Source of the DNA: Candidatus Contendibacter sp.
GTDB lineage: Bacteria; Pseudomonadota; Gammaproteobacteria; Competibacterales; Competibacteraceae
Direction of reading: 5' to 3'
Assembly (NCBI GenBank): GCA_029624675.1
Contig: JARSSP010000036.1
Location: 248,001 to 312,000 of the forward strand
DNA length: 64,000 bases
Positions 3,343 to 13,752 of this stretch are shown here, piece after piece. Position numbers and translations under genes: made by a program. Each line of letters starts with the position of its first letter. The first letter of the stretch is position 1. The notes under the pieces are model-generated. The model was not told the origin of the DNA. It searched no databases and worked only from the letters and a program-made list of their open reading frames with translations.

Positions 3343-3382
3343 TCGGCGTTACTGTGTGATAGGCGATTCTGGAGAAACCCCG

Positions 3383-6300
3383 ATGAGGAGTCTGGCGGCA
3401 AACTGCAAACCCCGCGACAGCGTGTTCGACAAAGCGCGCCGCGACACCGTTCTCGATCTCACCGACCTGGTTCAAAACCGCATCGATCCCGAGGCGTTCT
3501 TCCGCGAGAACCACATCACCGAGGGGATGCGCATCCTCCTCACGGAGGGGTTCCGCCGCCTGGAAGGTAAAACCATCCAGGGGGTGTTCAAGCTGACCCA
3601 GGCCATGGGCGGCGGCAAGACCCATAACCTGCTCGTGCTCGGCCTGCTGGCCAAACACCCTGAATATCGCCGTCGGGTCATGGAAGGATTCTACGTGCCG
3701 GGGGCAATGGGCGCGGTGCGAGTGGTGGCCTTCTCGGGCCGAGAGAGCGACGCGCCGCTGGGTCTGTGGGGCGCGATCGCCGATCAGCTCGGCAAAAAAG
3801 AGCAATTCGCGGCGTACTACTCCCCGCTCTCCGCGCCGGGACAGACCGCCTGGGTAAATCTGCTCGCGGGCGAGCCGCTGGTCATCATGCTGGACGAGTT
3901 GCCGCCGTATTTCGAGTACGCCAAGTCGAAGGCCATCGGCAACTCCGACCTGTCCGTCGTCACCGCCACTGCACTGTCGAACTTGCTGGTCGCCATCGGC
4001 AAGGACGAACTCCACAACGTCTGCCTCGTCATTACCGACCTGACGGCGACTTACGTCGGGGGCAGCCAGCGGATCATTCAGGCCCTCGGCGATCTGGACC
4101 GCGAGACCGGGCGCACCGCTATGAGCCTGGAGCCGGTCCGCATGAACACGGATGAGTTCTACCAGATCCTCCGCAAGCGCCTGTTCGAGGAGTTGCCGCC
4201 GAAGGGCGAAATCGCCGAGGTGGCCCAAGCCTACGCCAAGTCGGTGCGCGACGCCCGGCAGATGGATGTCACCAACGCCTCGCCCGAACAGTTCGCGGCG
4301 CGGGTCGTGGAGTCCTATCCCTTCCACCCCGCGATCCGCGATCTCTACGCCCGCTTCAAGGAAAACCCCGGGTTCCAGCAGACTCGTGGCCTGATCCGGT
4401 TGATGCGCATCGTCGCCGCCCGCCTGTGGGAGAGTGGAAAGGCGAAACAGCGTTACCTCATCAACGCTCACGACCTCGATCTCAACGACCGCGAGACCCT
4501 TTCCGAACTCAACCAGATCAACAACAGCCTGGAGAACGCCGTCTCCCACGACATCGCCTCCGGCGGGCAGGCGGTCGCCGAGATTCTCGACACCAACCTC
4601 GGCGGCGACGACGCCCAGGACGTGATGAAACTCCTGCTGGCGTCTTCCCTGTCCACTGTCGCGGGCGGGACCAAGGGCCTCACCATTCCGGAGGCGGTCG
4701 CCAATCTTTGCGCGCCGGACCGGGACATCGCCAAGCTCAAAAATGAGGTCATCAACCGTCTCGTCACCACGGCCTGGTATCTCCACGCGGGACGCGACGG
4801 GCGGCTGTTCATCAAGAACGTGCAGAACCTGGTCGCCCGGCTCCGCACCACGGCGGAGAGCTACCTGCACGACCAATCGCTCAAGGAGTTGCGCGAGCGT
4901 CTGCAAGAACTGTTCAAGCCAAACAGCGGCTGGTGCTACCAGAAGGTCCAGGTCCTGCCGGCGGTGGATGAGATCGACCTCACCCAGGACAAGACCGTGC
5001 TGGTCGTCGCTAACCCGCACGCCGGCGGACTCCACCCGGACCTGCTGAAGCTCTACGACAACATCGACTTCAAGAACCGGGTCTGTTTTCTCACCGGCCA
5101 GCGCGGTGCCGACGCCTTGCTTAACGCCGCCAAGGAACTGAAAGCCATCCGCCACATCATCGACGAGTTGAAGGCCGAAGGAACCCCCGACAACGATCCT
5201 CAACTGGTGCAGGCCCGCGACCTGCTGGACCGCATCCAGAACCAGTTTGGCAGCGCCCTGCGCGAAACCTTTTCCACGCTCTACTACCCGAGCGCCCAGC
5301 GGCTCATGTCGGCGGACTTTCCCATGGAGTTCACCGCCAACAAGTACGATGGCGAAGACCAGATCATCCGCACCCTCAAGGCCAAGATGAAGTACACCGA
5401 GGAGGTCGGCGGCGAGACCTTCCGCAAGAAAGTGGAAGCGCGCCTCTTCACCCAGAAAGTCATGCTGTGGAGCGAGATCAAGCGCCGCGCCGCCACCAAT
5501 CCCGCCTGGCAGTGGCACCACCCGGAGGCGCTGGACAAGATCAAGGGGGAGTGCCTCCACCAGGACCTCTGGCGCGAGAGCGGCGGTTACATCGAGAAAG
5601 GCCCGTTCCCCCAGCCCGCCACTGAGGTCAAGCTGCAGGAGCTTTCCCGCGACGATGACACCGGGCGGGTCAGGCTCCGCGTCACCCCCATCAACGGCGA
5701 TGCCGTTTACCTGGAAATCGGCGGGCAGGCGACCACGGCTTCCCACAAGCTGGCGGGGCGCGATTACGAGACGAACGAGTTGCAGGTGTCTTTTCTGGCG
5801 GTGGATTCAACCGGGGAGCACGAAACCGGTGATGCCGTCATCTGGACCAACCGTATCACCCTGAAGGGCCGCGTCTTTGACGCAGGTTCCGACAAGAGGG
5901 TGGAACTGCGCGCCGCGCCGCCCGCACCGATCCGCTACACCACCGACGGTTCCGATCCCAAGCTTGTCGGCGGTTCCTACCACGAACCGTTTGTTGTGCC
6001 ACCGGGCGTCCGGTTGGTGCTGGCGGTGGCGGAGAAGCAGGGCATCCAATCGGACGTACTCCAGGTCGCCGTCCATTGGGACCAGCGGGAACCCGGAAAG
6101 CCCATCGACCAGGAGAAGCCAGCAACCTGGCGACCGGCTGGTGGCTTCACCTTCTCGACCACCCGCACCGCCTACGGCTTTCTGGAGCGGATTCGCAAAC
6201 ACGGCGGCCAGGCCGCGGTTACCCGGATCGCCGTCCTGAACGGCCAATGGGTGGACCTAAATCTGGCCGACGATCTCAGCCTGGATGCCGACCGGATTCA

Positions 6301-6448
6301 GGCGACGGTCGAGCATCTGCGGTCGCTGCTGACCGAGGGCGAGGTGAATATCGAGGCGTCTGCCCTGTGGTTTCCGACCGGGCAGCAGTTGCTCGATTAC
6401 GTGCGAGACGCCGCCATCGAGTTTCGGCGCGGCGAGGTCGAGCAGTGA
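3383..6448 (+). CDS. DUF499-type AAA ATPase of a predicted anti-phage locus
   Basis: The 1021-residue protein is a large P-loop ATPase. Walker A is QAMGGGKTHN at about residues 73-82 and Walker B is LVIMLDELP at about 165-173, the arrangement expected of the DUF499 family found in predicted defence loci. The middle is mostly helical. Residues of about 840-894 contain IRYTTDGSDP, the hallmark of the chitobiase C-terminal/Fn3-associated domain, which is unusual in an intracellular ATPase. The ATG at 3383 has GGAGA seven bases upstream. It is the first gene of the defence block. By analogy it may be the ATP-driven motor or sensor; direct evidence is absent. Confidence 0.82.
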   Translation: MRSLAANCKPRDSVFDKARRDTVLDLTDLVQNRIDPEAFFRENHITEGMRILLTEGFRRLEGKTIQGVFKLTQAMGGGKTHNLLVLGLLAKHPEYRRRVMEGFYVPGAMGAVRVVAFSGRESDAPLGLWGAIADQLGKKEQFAAYYSPLSAPGQTAWVNLLAGEPLVIMLDELPPYFEYAKSKAIGNSDLSVVTATALSNLLVAIGKDELHNVCLVITDLTATYVGGSQRIIQALGDLDRETGRTAMSLEPVRMNTDEFYQILRKRLFEELPPKGEIAEVAQAYAKSVRDARQMDVTNASPEQFAARVVESYPFHPAIRDLYARFKENPGFQQTRGLIRLMRIVAARLWESGKAKQRYLINAHDLDLNDRETLSELNQINNSLENAVSHDIASGGQAVAEILDTNLGGDDAQDVMKLLLASSLSTVAGGTKGLTIPEAVANLCAPDRDIAKLKNEVINRLVTTAWYLHAGRDGRLFIKNVQNLVARLRTTAESYLHDQSLKELRERLQELFKPNSGWCYQKVQVLPAVDEIDLTQDKTVLVVANPHAGGLHPDLLKLYDNIDFKNRVCFLTGQRGADALLNAAKELKAIRHIIDELKAEGTPDNDPQLVQARDLLDRIQNQFGSALRETFSTLYYPSAQRLMSADFPMEFTANKYDGEDQIIRTLKAKMKYTEEVGGETFRKKVEARLFTQKVMLWSEIKRRAATNPAWQWHHPEALDKIKGECLHQDLWRESGGYIEKGPFPQPATEVKLQELSRDDDTGRVRLRVTPINGDAVYLEIGGQATTASHKLAGRDYETNELQVSFLAVDSTGEHETGDAVIWTNRITLKGRVFDAGSDKRVELRAAPPAPIRYTTDGSDPKLVGGSYHEPFVVPPGVRLVLAVAEKQGIQSDVLQVAVHWDQREPGKPIDQEKPATWRPAGGFTFSTTRTAYGFLERIRKHGGQAAVTRIAVLNGQWVDLNLADDLSLDADRIQATVEHLRSLLTEGEVNIEASALWFPTGQQLLDYVRDAAIEFRRGEVEQ

Positions 6449-6536: not shown

Positions 6537-6797
6537 ATGAAAGTCGTGACCTACTCCCATGCGCGTAATGCGCTTAAATCCGTCCTGGATGCGGTGGTCC
6601 AGGACGCGGATGTAATCATCATCAGCCGCCGCGATGCGGAGGGCGATGCCGTCGTGATGTCGCTGGACAGCTATAACAGCATCATGGAGACCTTGCATCT
6701 CACCAGTAATCCCGCCAATGCGGCGGCACTGGCTCGGGCCATCGCCCAGGACCGGGCCGGACAGGCGCAAGAGCACCCACTGATGGCGGACGATTGA
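6537..6797 (+). CDS. yefM: YefM/Phd-family antitoxin embedded in the defence operon
   Basis: The 86-residue product starts MKVVTYSHARNALKSVLD and continues through a hydrophobic strand (ADVIIISRR) and VVMSLDSYNSIMETLHL. That pattern is typical of Phd/YefM antitoxins, whose N-terminal fold binds operator DNA and whose disordered C-terminus neutralises the toxin. Its stop overlaps the start of the yoeB-like gene, as is normal for the pair. What is odd is the location: it follows the DUF499 gene by 88 bases and precedes DUF3780, inside a defence operon. It would be expected to repress its own transcription together with YoeB. Confidence 0.9.
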   Translation: MKVVTYSHARNALKSVLDAVVQDADVIIISRRDAEGDAVVMSLDSYNSIMETLHLTSNPANAAALARAIAQDRAGQAQEHPLMADD

Positions 6798-7075
6798 GCG
6801 TGCGCCATATCCGTTTCGTGCCCGATGCGTGGGAGGCCTATCTCTACTGGCACGACCAGGACCGGAAAACGCTGAAGCGGATCAATGCGCTCATCATCGC
6901 CGCCGCCCGTGACCCTTTCGCCGGGATCGGCAAGCCGGAACCCTTGCGCGGCGACTTGTCCGGCTACTGGTCGCGACGCATCGACGACACGAACCGGCTG
7001 ATCTATCGCGCCACCGAAACCGAGCTGGTGGTGATCGCCTGTCGCTTCCACTACGCCGGCCCAGCGAGTGTCTGA
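6794..7075 (+). CDS. yoeB: YoeB-family mRNA interferase toxin
   Basis: About 90 residues with the RelE/YoeB fold signature: an N-terminal beta strand, then EAYLYWHDQDRKTLKRINALI, then a PFAGIGKPEPLRGDLSGYWSRRI segment and a C-terminal FHY. In YoeB these surround the catalytic residues (Glu, Arg, His, Tyr) that cleave mRNA in the ribosomal A site. The start is either TTG at 6794, overlapping the antitoxin stop, or the in-frame GTG at 6800. Its TGA overlaps the ATG of the DUF3780 gene as TGATG. The toxin is therefore translationally coupled to a defence component. Confidence 0.9.
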   Translation: MSVRHIRFVPDAWEAYLYWHDQDRKTLKRINALIIAAARDPFAGIGKPEPLRGDLSGYWSRRIDDTNRLIYRATETELVVIACRFHYAGPASV

Positions 7076-7740
7076 TGCCCGCCCAACAGAAATCCGCCGC
7101 CTTCGGTTTTGGGTTCCGCCCCGAGGAATCGGCGCATCACTTTCTGGTCACCATTCCGGCCAGTAACCGGGAGGAGGTGCTGATTTCCGAGCATTTCGTC
7201 TGGGATGAAAGCCAGGCCGGTTCTCCCCCGACCTTTGCCCCCGGCGAGATGGAGGGGAAGCTGCGAGTCATGCTCGTCCGTCCCAAGTGGAACGAGATCG
7301 CCGACGAGGTTCGCGTCGAGTTTAACCAGCGCCTGAAAAAAGAAGGGCTGCCGTCCGGGGCCTGGAAAACCGGAACCACGCCGGTGTCCCGCCTGCTCGG
7401 CAAGGAACTGGTGCTGCTGGCCTGGGCCATCGAGGAGGCCGATCCGGCACTCATTCCCACTGCCATCAAAAACTGGCTGGGACTGGTTCCCGAGGAGCGA
7501 TGGTGGCTCTATACCATGACCTCGGCGGCCACCGGCCACGCCATCCAGGGACGCAACAAGGGCTGGCGCAAGGCGGTGCGGTACGCGCTCACCGAGAACC
7601 CGGTGACGGACGCCCCACACCCGCCACCCCCGATCTTTGAATTGCGAACCTCGGAGCAACCCCCCTCCACACCGGTCAGGAAGAAGCGGGCGGTGCGCCG
7701 AACCGGGAAGACCCCCCATTCGGACGACGTTACCCGGTGA
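7075..7740 (+). CDS. DUF3780 family protein of the defence locus
   Basis: A 221-residue soluble protein. I assign it to DUF3780 from the general sequence pattern (FGFRPEESAHHFLVTIPASN near the N-terminus, GWRKAVRYALTENP near the C-terminus) and from its place between the DUF499 and DUF1156 genes, where DUF3780 is the expected partner. No catalytic motif is visible. The last 35 or so residues are basic and proline-rich (KKRAVRRTGK) and may be a disordered nucleic-acid-binding tail. Its ATG overlaps the yoeB stop, and the next gene's ATG lies 5 bases after its own stop. Its role in the system is unknown. Confidence 0.7.
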   Translation: MPAQQKSAAFGFGFRPEESAHHFLVTIPASNREEVLISEHFVWDESQAGSPPTFAPGEMEGKLRVMLVRPKWNEIADEVRVEFNQRLKKEGLPSGAWKTGTTPVSRLLGKELVLLAWAIEEADPALIPTAIKNWLGLVPEERWWLYTMTSAATGHAIQGRNKGWRKAVRYALTENPVTDAPHPPPPIFELRTSEQPPSTPVRKKRAVRRTGKTPHSDDVTR

Positions 7741-7745
7741 GCGCC

Positions 7746-10631
7746 ATGGAAAACGACAAGACCTTCATCGAGACCCAGTTCCCCGTCTCCAAGCTTTCGA
7801 AGGAAAGCTACAAGGAACGCAGCGCAAAGAACAGCCAAACCCTCACCGGCCTGGGTAAATGGTGGGGCCGCAAGCCGCTGATCATGGTGCGGGCCGCGAT
7901 TATTGGATTGTTGCTGCCGGCGACCCGTGACCCGAAGAAGGATCGGGACATCTTCCTCAAGATTCTAACCATGGACGCGGAAGGCTTGTGGCGGCGTAAG
8001 ACCAAGGCCATCGCGCTCAAGGACGTGTTCGAGAAGCTGACGCCAGCCGGGCGGGTACGCTGGTTCGACCTGGATTCGCCCAAACCCAAATTCCGGAAGG
8101 GCACCACCGCTGAGGAAAAGGAAGAGGTGCAGCGCCTCGTCTTCGACTGTCTGAGCTACGACGAGAAGCTCGCCTACTGCGACCGCCCGGAGCAGATCGA
8201 GGGACCTTCGGAGGCGGCCTGGCGGGAAATCAACGCCCATCTCGGAACCGACGCCCAAAGCTTGCCCGATCTGGTCCGCCAACTCGGCGAACGCCGCTTC
8301 GGCCATACGCCGCGAGTCGGGGATGCCTTCTGCGGCGGTGGCAGCGTTCCATTCGAGGCGGTGCGGATCGGTTGTGAAGCTTACGGCTCCGATCTCAACC
8401 CGGTCGCGGCCCTGCTGACGTGGGGCGCGTTGAACATCGTCGGCGGCGGCGCAGACATCGCGGAGCAGGTTCGCGCGGCGCAGCGGCGGGTGTATGAGGC
8501 CGTGGACCGCCAGATCATCGAGTGGGGGATCGAACACAACGAGCAGGGAGATCGAGCCGATGCGTATCTCTACTGCACCGAGACCCGCTGCCCGGAATGC
8601 GGCTGGTCCGTGCCGCTGGCCCCGTCCTGGGTGATTGGCGAGAAGACGCTCACGCTGGCCCGCCTCGTCCCCGACGAAGCGGCCAAGCGTTTTACCGTCG
8701 AAATCCAGCAGGGAACCACCCGAGCCGCCCTCGACCAGGCCCGCGCCGCCGGCACCGTCCGCGATTCGCGACTGGTCTGTCCCCACTGCGGCGAATCCAC
8801 GCCGATGACCGCCATTCGCGGCGACCGGCGCGGCCAGACCACCGAATACGGCTTGCGGCTGTGGGATAACGAGGATTTGGTACCGCAGCCGGACGACGTC
8901 TTTCAGGAACGGCTGTATTGCATCCGCTGGGTCCACACCTGGACCGACGACGAGAGAAAAACCCAGCGCGACCGGTATTACCGCGCCCCGGATGAGAACG
9001 ATTTCCGGCGCGAAGCCAGGGTGCTGGAGCTTTTACGAGAGCGATTCGCTGCATGGCAGGCGAAAGGTTATATCCCCAGTCGCCGGATCGAGCCGGGCGA
9101 TAAAACTGACGAGCCGATACGGACGCGCGGATGGACGCATTGGCATCATCTGTTTATGCCGAGGCAGTTGTTGACCTTGGGCCTTCTCGCATACCAAGTT
9201 GCCAGTAAACAACATGATCTTATTTGCGATGTTCCCATGCTTTTAGGTTTGTCTCGTTGTTATGACTACAACTCACGGCTTTGCCGTTGGCATCCCAGAT
9301 CAGTCGGCGATAAATCAGAACAGACATTTAGCAACCAAGCCCTCAATACCTTGTTCAATTACGCTGGTCGCGGAGTAAGTGCTCTCGACGATAGCTTCTT
9401 GATCAGCTTTCAGCCGAGCGAAAACCCTGGCATCGGGCAGGTGAGTGTTGGTGATGCACGGCAACTATCCACAGAATCAGATTTATGGGTGACAGATCCC
9501 CCCTACGCCGAAGCCATCAACTACCACGAACTCTCCGAATTCTTCCTCGCTTGGTACGAAAAACAACTGCCCAAGCTATTCCCCGACTGGTACGCCGACA
9601 GCAAGCGCGCCCTTGCCATCCGTGGCTCCGGCAAGGAGTTCCGCCAGGGCATGGTGGACGCCTACCGCAACCTCGCCGCCCATACGCCCGACAACGGGCT
9701 GCAAATCGTCATGTTCACCCATCAGGATGCGGGGGTCTGGGCCGACCTGGCGCTCATCCTCTGGGCCGCCGGGTTGCGGGTGACGGCGGCCTGGACCATC
9801 GCCACGGAAACTGAATCCGCGCTCAAGGAAGGCAACTACGTGCAGGGCACCGTGCTCATGGTGCTCCGCAAGCAGACCTCCCAGGACGTGGCGTTTCTCG
9901 ACGAAATCGTTCCCCAGGTGGAAATCGAAGTCGAACAGCAACTCCAGTCCATGCTGGCGCTGGACGACCGGGAAGACCCCAACTTCTCCGACGCCGACTA
10001 TCAACTTGCCGCCTACGCCGCCGCTCTGCGCGTCCTGACCCAGTACCAGGGCATCGAAGACATTGACGTGGCCTACGAACTGTCCCGCGAACGGAAGCGC
10101 GGAGAGGCGTCGCCCATCGCGCGGATCATCGAGAACGCGGTCAAGACCGCCAGCAACTTCCTCGTCCCCAGCGGCCTTGAAGCCCAATTGTGGAAGCGTC
10201 TCTCGCCGGAGGAAAAGCTCTACCTCAAATGCCTGGAGGTGGAATCCCACGGCGACTACCGCAGCGGCGTGTTCCAGGAATTCGCCCGGGGCTTCGGCGT
10301 GCGCGACTACACCTTCATGCTCCAAAGCGGCAAGGCCAACCAGACCCGCCTCAAGACCGCCACCGAATTCAAGCGCCGGGACTGGGGCACGGAAGGCTTC
10401 GGCTCCTCGCTGCTGCGCCACGCGCTGTTCGCCGTCTATCAGACCGCCGACCAGGACAACACCAAGGTCGGCCTCACCTACCTCAAGACCGAGCTTCGGG
10501 ACTACTGGGCGCAGCGCGAAAACTTGGTCGGGATGCTCGGCTTCCTCGCCAAGCTGCCGATCCCGCACTGGACGAAGGACGCGGAAGCGGCCCGGTTGCT
10601 GGCGGGCGCGGTTGAGAATGATCATGTTTAG
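7746..10631 (+). CDS. DUF1156-type DNA methyltransferase of the defence locus
   Basis: The 961-residue protein begins with the DUF1156 signature (GKWWGRKPL near residue 40). SAM-binding motif I is DAFCGGGSVPFEAV at about residue 192. Two CxxC pairs (CPECGW about 281, CPHCGES about 345) form a probable zinc ribbon. The catalytic motif DPPY is at about residue 583, as in N6-adenine or N4-cytosine methyltransferases. It probably modifies host DNA as the self mark. The ATG at 7746 is chosen over GTG 7737, which overlaps the preceding stop. Bases of about 9140-9490, between the zinc ribbon and DPPY, are distinctly AT-richer and suggest a recombined segment. The target sequence cannot be read from the DNA. 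Confidence 0.85.
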   Translation: MENDKTFIETQFPVSKLSKESYKERSAKNSQTLTGLGKWWGRKPLIMVRAAIIGLLLPATRDPKKDRDIFLKILTMDAEGLWRRKTKAIALKDVFEKLTPAGRVRWFDLDSPKPKFRKGTTAEEKEEVQRLVFDCLSYDEKLAYCDRPEQIEGPSEAAWREINAHLGTDAQSLPDLVRQLGERRFGHTPRVGDAFCGGGSVPFEAVRIGCEAYGSDLNPVAALLTWGALNIVGGGADIAEQVRAAQRRVYEAVDRQIIEWGIEHNEQGDRADAYLYCTETRCPECGWSVPLAPSWVIGEKTLTLARLVPDEAAKRFTVEIQQGTTRAALDQARAAGTVRDSRLVCPHCGESTPMTAIRGDRRGQTTEYGLRLWDNEDLVPQPDDVFQERLYCIRWVHTWTDDERKTQRDRYYRAPDENDFRREARVLELLRERFAAWQAKGYIPSRRIEPGDKTDEPIRTRGWTHWHHLFMPRQLLTLGLLAYQVASKQHDLICDVPMLLGLSRCYDYNSRLCRWHPRSVGDKSEQTFSNQALNTLFNYAGRGVSALDDSFLISFQPSENPGIGQVSVGDARQLSTESDLWVTDPPYAEAINYHELSEFFLAWYEKQLPKLFPDWYADSKRALAIRGSGKEFRQGMVDAYRNLAAHTPDNGLQIVMFTHQDAGVWADLALILWAAGLRVTAAWTIATETESALKEGNYVQGTVLMVLRKQTSQDVAFLDEIVPQVEIEVEQQLQSMLALDDREDPNFSDADYQLAAYAAALRVLTQYQGIEDIDVAYELSRERKRGEASPIARIIENAVKTASNFLVPSGLEAQLWKRLSPEEKLYLKCLEVESHGDYRSGVFQEFARGFGVRDYTFMLQSGKANQTRLKTATEFKRRDWGTEGFGSSLLRHALFAVYQTADQDNTKVGLTYLKTELRDYWAQRENLVGMLGFLAKLPIPHWTKDAEAARLLAGAVENDHV

Positions 10632-10682: not shown

Positions 10683-10937
10683 ATGAAGCAGACGATACAA
10701 ATCGATTGTCCAGCGGAAATTTTGCTGAACATTCACCTCAATGCCGAGGGTTTTGCGGAATATCTCAAACGTCAGGCCGCAATCAGCCTGTTTAAGGAAG
10801 GAAAATTATCATCGGGAACCGCCGCCGCCTGGTTGGAGATGCCACGCGCCGAATTCTTATATCTGGCGATGCAGGCTGGCGCAACGCTCCTTGATGATTC
10901 GACGGATGATTACAACCGTGAAACGGCATTATTATGA
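10683..10937 (+). CDS. UPF0175 family antitoxin-like protein (orphan)
   Basis: The 84-residue product (MKQTIQIDCPAEILLNIHLN and onward) has the UPF0175 pattern: a ligand-like N-terminal strand, then AAISLFKEGKLSSGTAAAWLEMPRAEFL, a helix-turn-helix-like region. These proteins are normally antitoxins paired with a downstream PIN-domain (DUF3368) toxin. Here an ATG overlaps its stop (ATGA at 10934-10937) and reads MIVRDSHTK before a TAA, so only a vestigial partner is present. It lies between the methyltransferase and the helicase. It could be a decayed toxin-antitoxin module or a regulator kept for the locus. The start at 10683 avoids a short upstream extension from 10659. Confidence 0.75.
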   Translation: MKQTIQIDCPAEILLNIHLNAEGFAEYLKRQAAISLFKEGKLSSGTAAAWLEMPRAEFLYLAMQAGATLLDDSTDDYNRETALL

Positions 10938-11064: not shown

Positions 11065-13752
11065 ATGATCCATCGCTTCTCCTCCCGCCGCTGCCGCCTC
11101 GATCACAGCTTCCTCGCCGGGCGCCTGCGGGGCGCGCAACGCTACGACCGCATCGCCGGGTTTTTCTCCTCCTCCATCCTGGAAGTCGCCGGCGAAGAAC
11201 TGGAGTCGGTTGCCGGCCCGGTCCGGCTGGTCTGCAATTCGGGGCTGGACCCACGAGACGTTGAGATTGCCAAGAAAGCGGCGCAGGTCGCCCTGCGGCG
11301 GGAATGGTGCGCGTCAGCGCCGGAACTGCTTCCCGAACCGGCCAAGCCCCGCTTCCGGCGTCTCTACGAATTTCTCGCCAGCGGCAAGCTCCAGGTCAGG
11401 GTCATTCCCGACCAGAAATTCGGCCTGATCCACGGCAAGGCTGGCGTCATCACGCTGGCGGATGGCCGCCAGACCGCCTTCCTCGGCAGCGTCAACGAAT
11501 CCCTCACCGCCTGGCACCTGAACTACGAGCTGCTCTGGGAAGACGACTCCGAGGACGCCATTCGCTGGGTCCAGGAAGAATTCGATGCCCTGTGGGATTC
11601 GCCTTTTGCCGTCGAACTGTCCGATGCGGTGGTGCAGGACATCCAGCGGCTGGCCGAGCGGGTGGTCATTCCCGATCTGAGAGACTGGCGCCAGGAACCG
11701 GACCCCGCCGCCCCCATCATCGAAGCCCCGGTCTACCGCAAGGAAGTCGGCCTTTGGCAGCACCAGAAGCATTTCGTCAAACTGGCCTTCGACGCCCACA
11801 TCGGCCCGCACGGGGCGCGTTTCATCCTCGCCGACCAGGTCGGCCTCGGCAAGACCATCCAACTCGCCATGGCGGCCCAGTTGATGGCCCTGTCCGGCGA
11901 CCAACCGGTCTTGATCCTCGCCCCCAAGCCGCTGATCGGACAGTGGCAGAGCGAGTTGCAAACCCTGCTCGACATGCCGGCGGCGGTGTGGAACGGCAAA
12001 AACTGGGTGGACGAAAACCGGCTCGAATACCCGAGTACCGGTCCCGAGTCGATCCGGAAATGCCCCCGCCGGGTCGGCATCGTTTCCACCGGCCTGATCA
12101 TCGCCGGCTCCGAGATTCGGGACTGGCTGGTCAACCTGAACTACGAATGCGTGATTCTCGACGAGGCCCATCGCGCCCGGCGGCGTAATCTCGGACCGGG
12201 CAAGGAGTACGATCCCGCCGAACCCAACCATTTGCTGCGCTTCCTATGGGAAATCTCCCCCCGCGCGCACAGCCTGCTGCTCGCGACGGCCACCCCGGTC
12301 CAGCTTCACCCCATCGAAGCCTGGGATTTGCTGGACGCCCTGGCGCGGGGTTCGGACGCGGTCCTCGGGGGTTACGGCAGCCCGTGGCGCAAGCCGCGCC
12401 AGGCTTTGGAATTGCTGCTCGGCGAGGCGCCGCTTCCGACCGAAGAAATCGATCTGTGGAGCTGGATGCGTAATCCGCTACCGCCCGCGTCCGAGGGGCC
12501 GGATTACCGCGCCCTACGGCGCTCCCTGGGGATGTCGGATCAGGATTGCCTGGCGCCCGGCGGCAGCTTCGACCGGTTGCGCCCGCCGGACCGGGCCAGA
12601 ATCCGCCGCGTCTTTCCCCGATTCATGGAACAGTCGAACCCGTTCATCCGTCACATCGTCCTGCGCACCCGCGAATACCTGGAGACCACGCTCGATCCCG
12701 AGACTGGCGAACCTTTCCTGAAGTCGGTGCGGGTCCAACTGCACGGGGAACGCGGCGAGGACGCCATCGCGCTGCCCCCGTTTCTGGAAGACGCCTACCA
12801 CCATGCCGAGACGTTCTGCCGCCTGCTCGCCCAGCGCGCCAACGGGGGTTTCTTCCGAACGCTGCTGCTGCGCCGCGTGGGCAGCACCATGGAGGCCGGC
12901 CGCAAGACCGTGGAGAAAATGCTCTCGGAATGGACCACCCTCGATGACGACGAAGACGATGAGGAGACTCTGAGCCAGCTTCGGACTCTGACACCCGAGG
13001 AGCGGGTGGTGCTGGAGCGATTCCTCAAGGCACTCGAAGCGAACCAGGAACGCGATCCCAAGTACCACATCGTCCGCAAGCTGTTGCTCGATCACGGCTG
13101 GCGCGAACGGGGGTGCATCATCTTCAGCCAGTACTTCGACTCTGTCATCTGGCTGGCGGAACAACTCACCGAGGAGATGCCCGACGAAGAGATCGGTGTC
13201 TACGCCGGGGAACAGCGGTCGGGAATCATGCGCCAAGGCGTCGTCACCCGGACGGCGCGGGACGTGCTCAAGGAGCGGGTCCGAACCGGGGAAATCCGCG
13301 TCCTCGTCGGCACCGATGCCGCCTCGGAAGGACTCAACCTCCAGCGGCTCGGGACGCTCATCAACCTCGACCTGCCGTGGAACCCCTCCCGGCTGGAGCA
13401 GCGCAAGGGCCGCATCCAGCGCATCGGCCAACTCCGCGACACCGTGGACATTTACAACCTGCGCTACGCCAGGTCGGTGGAAGACCGCGTCCATGACCTG
13501 TTGTCCGAACGACTGGAAAACCTCGCCACGCTGTTTGGCCAGATTCCCGATATTCTGGAAGACGTGTGGATCGACCTCGCCCTCGGCGAGATTGAACAGG
13601 CCAGGAAAACCATCGCTGCCGTGCCCCGGAAACATCCCTTCCAAATCCGCTATCACCACGTCCAGAAAGTAGATTGGGAAAGTTGCGCCCGCGTGCTCGA
13701 TGCCGAGGAACGAAAGCGATGTCTATCGGTGGGTTGGGTGAAAATCCGATAA
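11065..13752 (+). CDS. Fused PLD-type nuclease and SNF2-family helicase of the defence locus
   Basis: An 895-residue protein with two parts. The N-terminal quarter is phospholipase-D-like: IHGKAG at about residue 121 followed by GSVNES gives the HxK(x)nN/S pattern of a PLD half-site, probably a nuclease acting as a dimer. The rest is an SF2/SNF2 helicase core: GLGKT at about 257, DEAH at about 364, LLATATP, then in the second lobe TDAASEGLNLQ at about 749 and GRIQRIGQ at about 783. It should translocate on double-stranded DNA and could deliver or trigger the nuclease. It is the last gene of the locus and is separated from UPF0175 by 127 bases. The PLD activity assignment is less certain than the helicase. 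Confidence 0.86.
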   Translation: MIHRFSSRRCRLDHSFLAGRLRGAQRYDRIAGFFSSSILEVAGEELESVAGPVRLVCNSGLDPRDVEIAKKAAQVALRREWCASAPELLPEPAKPRFRRLYEFLASGKLQVRVIPDQKFGLIHGKAGVITLADGRQTAFLGSVNESLTAWHLNYELLWEDDSEDAIRWVQEEFDALWDSPFAVELSDAVVQDIQRLAERVVIPDLRDWRQEPDPAAPIIEAPVYRKEVGLWQHQKHFVKLAFDAHIGPHGARFILADQVGLGKTIQLAMAAQLMALSGDQPVLILAPKPLIGQWQSELQTLLDMPAAVWNGKNWVDENRLEYPSTGPESIRKCPRRVGIVSTGLIIAGSEIRDWLVNLNYECVILDEAHRARRRNLGPGKEYDPAEPNHLLRFLWEISPRAHSLLLATATPVQLHPIEAWDLLDALARGSDAVLGGYGSPWRKPRQALELLLGEAPLPTEEIDLWSWMRNPLPPASEGPDYRALRRSLGMSDQDCLAPGGSFDRLRPPDRARIRRVFPRFMEQSNPFIRHIVLRTREYLETTLDPETGEPFLKSVRVQLHGERGEDAIALPPFLEDAYHHAETFCRLLAQRANGGFFRTLLLRRVGSTMEAGRKTVEKMLSEWTTLDDDEDDEETLSQLRTLTPEERVVLERFLKALEANQERDPKYHIVRKLLLDHGWRERGCIIFSQYFDSVIWLAEQLTEEMPDEEIGVYAGEQRSGIMRQGVVTRTARDVLKERVRTGEIRVLVGTDAASEGLNLQRLGTLINLDLPWNPSRLEQRKGRIQRIGQLRDTVDIYNLRYARSVEDRVHDLLSERLENLATLFGQIPDILEDVWIDLALGEIEQARKTIAAVPRKHPFQIRYHHVQKVDWESCARVLDAEERKRCLSVGWVKIR

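Follow-up and report, generated by a model that had tools for sequence, protein, structure and literature searches.

The AT-rich patch within the DUF1156 methylase gene of Candidatus Contendibacter sp. most probably (about 80%) encodes the main part of a target-recognition domain (TRD) that is nested between motifs II and III/DPPY and exchanged via its conserved flanks, with an accompanying change of target as our inference. Alignments of homologues demonstrate that this putative cassette (aa 476 to 568, core aa 512 to 568) is replaced as a unit between near-invariant flanks, and the specificity of the methylase would change through such block exchange. The gene lies in a 64,000-nucleotide stretch of contig JARSSP010000036.1 (the window), and its features are collected in Table 1. 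Residues are numbered over 960 aa after the Met, residue k starting at position 7749 + 3(k − 1).

Table 1. Features of the defense locus and of the methylase gene, in window positions
Feature	Position	Strand	Basis or remark
DUF499 AAA+ ATPase	3356..6448	+	PDLC02192 715 bits; NF042962 841 bits, under its cut-off of 1200
DUF3780 protein	7075..7740	+	PF12635, E 3e-53
Predicted DUF1156 anti-phage N6-adenine methyltransferase	7746..10631	+	NF042963 1432 bits (cut-off 1000), full-length; PF06634 DUF1156
Hypervariable region 1 (aa 84-130)	7998..8138	+	length-variable; GC3 normal; no co-variation with block
SAM-binding motif I (DAFCGGGS, aa 192-199) to motif II (YGSDLNP, aa 212-218), core strands 1 and 2	8322..8402	+	
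Zn-ribbon/beta insert (aa 231-380)	8439..8888	+	divergence partly co-varies with block
Conserved left flank GWTHWHHLFMPRQLL (aa 461-475)	9129..9173	+	identity 0.95 over aa 461-470, close pairs
AT-rich hypervariable block (aa 476-568), putative exchanged target-recognition cassette	9174..9452	+	
Core exchange unit (aa 512-568)	9282..9452	+	differs between otherwise near-identical genes of one clade
Conserved right flank, motif III-like GDAR (aa 568-571) to motif IV DPPY (aa 583-586)	9450..9506	+	
PLD (HKD) nuclease-SNF2 helicase effector	11065..13752	+	NF042964 1279 bits, above cut-off; PLDc_2 and Helicase_C

The methylase and its predicted defense locus

Profile searches placed a DUF499 ATPase, a DUF1156 N6-methyltransferase, and a helicase effector in one locus, with DUF3780 as a standalone protein and the HKD/PLD nuclease fused to the helicase. 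The DUF499 and DUF3780 proteins score under the NCBIfam cut-offs, yet both have strong PADLOC and Pfam matches. By these domain assignments, the DUF499/DUF3780/DUF1156/PLD-helicase set is a predicted "Type-2 BREX-related" (Type-2 BR) defense system, a name that comes from a 2026 survey (PMC12839542). The same four core genes in their usual order make up the Type-2 BR set of that survey (PADLOC DUF1156_MTase/DUF3780/DUF499/PLD_Helicase), while the locus here differs in two insertions between core genes: a YefM/Phd antitoxin (PF02604) and YoeB toxin (PF06769) pair at 6537-7075, between the DUF499 and DUF3780 genes, and a UPF0175 gene (PF03683) at 10683-10937, between the methylase and PLD-helicase genes, which lies in a second AT-rich stretch (GC, ∼0.48). 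A copy of the locus on the Acinetobacter plasmid CP146230.1 adjoins a Tn7-like tnsE, and its methylase and DUF499 genes are annotated in pieces, apparently frameshifted.

Motif I (aa 192) precedes the insert of the methylase and DPPY (aa 583) follows it, which is the nested (alpha-class-like) TRD layout. Within motifs I and II, G196, G198, and D215 are invariant. The AlphaFold2 model (pLDDT, 88.8; pTM, 0.85) has core strands at aa 189-192 and 210-215 and the DPPY strand at 579-582; the block appears in it as helices 471-486 and 491-506, a loop, a strand, a helix, and then strand 562-567 before GDAR. A Foldseek search against the PDB returned generic SAM-methylase matches, none with an E value of <1e-3, and no solved relative with DNA contacts. 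The Pfam search found no PF01420 (Methylase_S) domain, which an HsdS subunit would carry. The methylase family and its nested TRD have already been published: the survey proposes the TRD as an insert of ∼250 aa after core strand 2, with a Zn finger (PMC12839542). The AT-rich patch lies at the place of this proposed insert, which supports the suggestion of an earlier note on this DNA that it could hold the target-recognition part of the methylase. Relative to the survey, whose consulted passages do not mention exchange, variability here falls mainly in the C-terminal ∼60 to 95 aa of the insert.

An AT-rich patch with sharp edges

The earlier note had read from the letters an AT-rich patch at 9140-9490 that starts abruptly and leaves the frame open, and our measurements agree. 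GC in 300-bp windows is 0.477 to 0.480 at 9100-9500 and ∼0.58 to 0.69 on either side, the reading frame is open throughout, and composition and variability both shift near 9174, directly after GWTHWHHLFMPRQLL; with the change near 9174 and an end at 9452-9490, before DPPY, the coordinates were correct to within a few codons. Among the codons said to be enriched in the patch and rare in the flanks, TTA, TTT, AAT, and GAT are indeed enriched, as are AGT and GTT, but AAC is not rare outside. GC3 is 0.461 in 9174-9480, compared with 0.78 to 0.85 in the remainder of the gene, and a division of the gene into two compositions fits best at 9139-9580. Over 93 codons, GC3 drops furthest in the stretch that starts at 9204 (−0.37), a depth reached by 0 of 20,000 codon shuffles. 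When 184 genes with 300 or more codons were taken from 464 kb of this genome, only 2 had deeper dips; in at least one of these, IGPS, the domain is recognized from residue 204 and the dip lies upstream of it, in an extension of the ORF, so that this dip is probably a start-codon artifact.

Searches of plasmids, 398 genomes of the phylum, and viral contigs for a donor of the window's block gave only partial matches to other DUF1156 methylases, the nearest known block being 53% identical, and a phage collection yielded only weak archaeal-virus methylases. Phase variation through an invertible specificity gene was considered and rejected, as there are no inverted repeats in 8900-9800 and no second or silent copy in the genome.

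Across hosts, fourfold-site GC of the block is on average 0.188 below that of the remaining gene; it is lower in 67 of 82 genes, a stronger bias to one side than random exchange by itself would give. Block GC follows host GC with a slope of 0.51, against 0.88 to 1.05 for other segments of the methylase. HsdS genes of the class, compared with a neighboring gene in 30 loci (L185-L214), gave a fourfold-site offset of −0.190 and a slope of 0.54, and because both values match, the block resembles a Type I specificity gene in composition. Within a clade from the class of Thermoanaerobacter wiegelii, AT-rich hosts often have the sign reversed, the block being GC-richer than the gene (0.34 to 0.48 versus 0.22 to 0.29), which is what import of DNA would produce. 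In the window's copy, the AT-richness may reflect an imported cassette whose composition has ameliorated only in part.

Variability between conserved flanks

Homologues were drawn from eighty loci of many phyla, among which 148 pairs at least 75% identical outside the block served as close pairs. The block (for this average, aa 481-580) is 43% identical in these pairs, compared with 78% outside, which is the opposite of the equal identity in block and flanks that would have spoken against the earlier note. Its edges are sharp. WHHLFxPRQLL is near-invariant, identity drops from aa 476, most of aa 551-561 has less than 20%, and conservation then returns at D569, A570, and R571 (97 to 99%) and at DPPY (100%). 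Conserved islands within the core exchange unit (W514, F527, NQALN at 529-533, and R541) suggest a common scaffold bearing variable loops. Hypervariable region 1 was rejected as a part of the same cassette: its divergence is uncorrelated with that of the block (r = 0.09), its GC is normal, and loci L066 and L067 have the block in common but not this region, which is probably a linker.

Divergence of the block correlates with that of aa 231-295 (r = 0.49) and aa 296-380 (r = 0.35), and the Zn-ribbon/beta insert is by this alignment evidence a secondary part of the predicted recognition domain. It is possible, though we consider it the less probable arrangement, that specificity resides in the insert as a whole (the Zn ribbon and beta module, aa 231-380, together with the block), in which case the block alone would be insufficient to set the motif. 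Besides the co-variation, two methylase copies in one genome (G154) fit this arrangement in differing in both segments, mainly in the block plus aa ∼285-372 of the copy, although the assembly is a draft and the case a weaker one. The HmaB methylase of Type-1 BR likewise dips at aa 361-420 in addition to the position just before DPPY, which is its least conserved and most AT-rich part, as in the DUF1156 methylase; HmaB is represented by 10 sequences only, and it differs from the DUF1156 methylase in belonging to another subfamily and lacking DUF3780. Against the whole insert as the unit stand natural genes (L238/L242 and L244-L246) whose differences lie almost only in the block.

The genome of the window itself carries an HmaB methylase, at L223:4079-7552 (G000:C5:84139-87525), in which an insert between motif I and DPPY keeps the frame and carries a DUF559 nuclease-like domain. 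Peptides resembling SPPNPLSLPGEGE near this insert may mark a mobile repeat, and a HEPN-DUF499 gene comes after the HmaB gene.

Exchange of the block between genes

The proposal that the patch is exchanged by recombination is borne out by a block phylogeny decoupled from that of the gene and by alleles swapped between closely related backbones. The block tree has 1 of 79 splits in common with the rest-of-gene tree (delta lnL, 701), whereas six control segments, hypervariable region 1 (15 splits) among them, retain 15 to 28 of 79 (delta lnL, 106 to 368). Since the controls also reject the rest-of-gene tree, the incongruence is partly generic noise and only the contrast counts.

The clearest swaps are in the T. 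wiegelii-class clade, where the exchanged unit runs from after WNSKL (∼aa 511) to DAR. DNA identity among L244, L245, and L246 is 0.90 to 0.99 outside the block and 0.61 to 0.66 inside it (L245/L246, 0.91 to 0.99 in the flanks and 0.61 in the block), while L244 and L249, with flanks at 0.73 to 0.90, have a block in common at 0.86 DNA and 0.91 protein identity, and the blocks of L246 and L248 are 0.96 identical. Because near-identical genes differ in the block and more distant backbones have it in common, alignment indicates that the block moves between genes. The view that the block has merely diverged fast because constraint on it is relaxed, its low GC being mutational drift, is therefore very improbable: a variable, surface-like block that is GC-poorer than the rest of the gene in most hosts would fit it, but the common block of L244 and L249 on diverged backbones, together with near-identical backbones that differ, refutes it unless the assemblies are in error, and the abrupt edges, the normal GC and 15 common splits of hypervariable region 1, and the reversal of block GC in AT-rich hosts also oppose it.

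In a draft assembly, and thus a weaker case, two tandem DUF1156 methylases (L038:1117-7130) are ∼91% identical in protein sequence outside the block and 32% inside; judged from their sequences, they are possibly one system with two specificities. In Escherichia coli, strain-level exchange was not seen among 32 and 17 genomes, which hold two clonal block alleles; each allele is essentially invariant, so exchange is not fast in this species. Relatives in the order of Accumulibacter supplied no additional close methylases with which to repeat the test in another clade.

Partner proteins and a proposed mechanism

In the same close pairs, the partner proteins (DUF499, DUF3780, and PLD-helicase) have a median identity of 0.80, and none has an internal block comparable to that of the methylase. 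Their variation is limited to the termini and one mild dip in DUF499 (aa 906-920, 0.49 over 15 residues). As no partner has such a block, a change of cassette would re-target methylation and restriction together.

We propose that homologous recombination in the conserved flanks brings in cassettes from other strains or species, that a methylase with a new cassette would bind another sequence, and that methylation and defense would thereby be re-targeted jointly, much as with PglX/BrxX in BREX. PglX/BrxX sets the sequence motif for both methylation and defense in BREX (PMC11341690, PMC11842806), and this single methylase acting as the specificity factor of Type I BREX is the likeness proposed here; its TRD is C-terminal, whereas the putative TRD of the DUF1156 methylase is nested in the methylase fold.

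In a different account, phage inhibitors (DNA mimics or anti-defense proteins) would target the block as a surface, and in the resulting arms race exchange would serve escape and not specificity. Hypervariability and exchange are by themselves silent on what is selected, and Ocr does bind BrxX/PglX (PMC11341690, PMC11842806). We nevertheless regard this account as improbable, given that the block has its place between motifs II and III, at the TRD insert proposed in the survey (PMC12839542), that its composition is indistinguishable from that of HsdS, and that the partner proteins are not similarly variable; the target of a DNA mimic would, moreover, usually overlap the DNA-binding surface anyway.

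Relation to known systems and implications

A recognition cassette exchanged between conserved flanks has parallels in known systems. HsdS of Type I restriction-modification likewise has a variable, exchanged recognition domain between conserved flanks and an equal compositional decoupling from the host, but it forms a subunit of its own and has two TRDs, whereas the methylase would have one cassette inside the catalytic polypeptide. Helicobacter Type III Mod proteins undergo TRD exchange and domain movement by recombination at sequences encoding conserved methylase motifs (PMC3983042, PMC3077401), as is proposed for the DUF1156 methylase. They belong to another methylase class and defense system, while the exchange described here concerns a BREX-related locus and extends across phyla. 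The open-access literature searched gave no earlier description of the cassette exchange or a fine map of it, and no methylation motif for the DUF1156 family was found in the literature searched.

The block map tells which residues to swap for testing specificity, and nature supplies near-identical gene pairs (e.g., L245/L246 and L238/L242) that differ almost only there. It also argues that the target is chosen in the methylase and not in the RRM domain of the ATPase, the proposed invader sensor. The half-way amelioration of base composition, which the block has in common with HsdS, may be a general flag for exchanged recognition domains. We give even odds to the stronger claim that this one methylase cassette of ∼60 to 95 residues is the only sequence-specific reader of the four-gene system. 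If that is true, the RRM domain of DUF499 and the DUF3780 protein would not choose the target sequence, and recombination of ∼200 to 300 bp would re-target methylation and restriction together across phyla.
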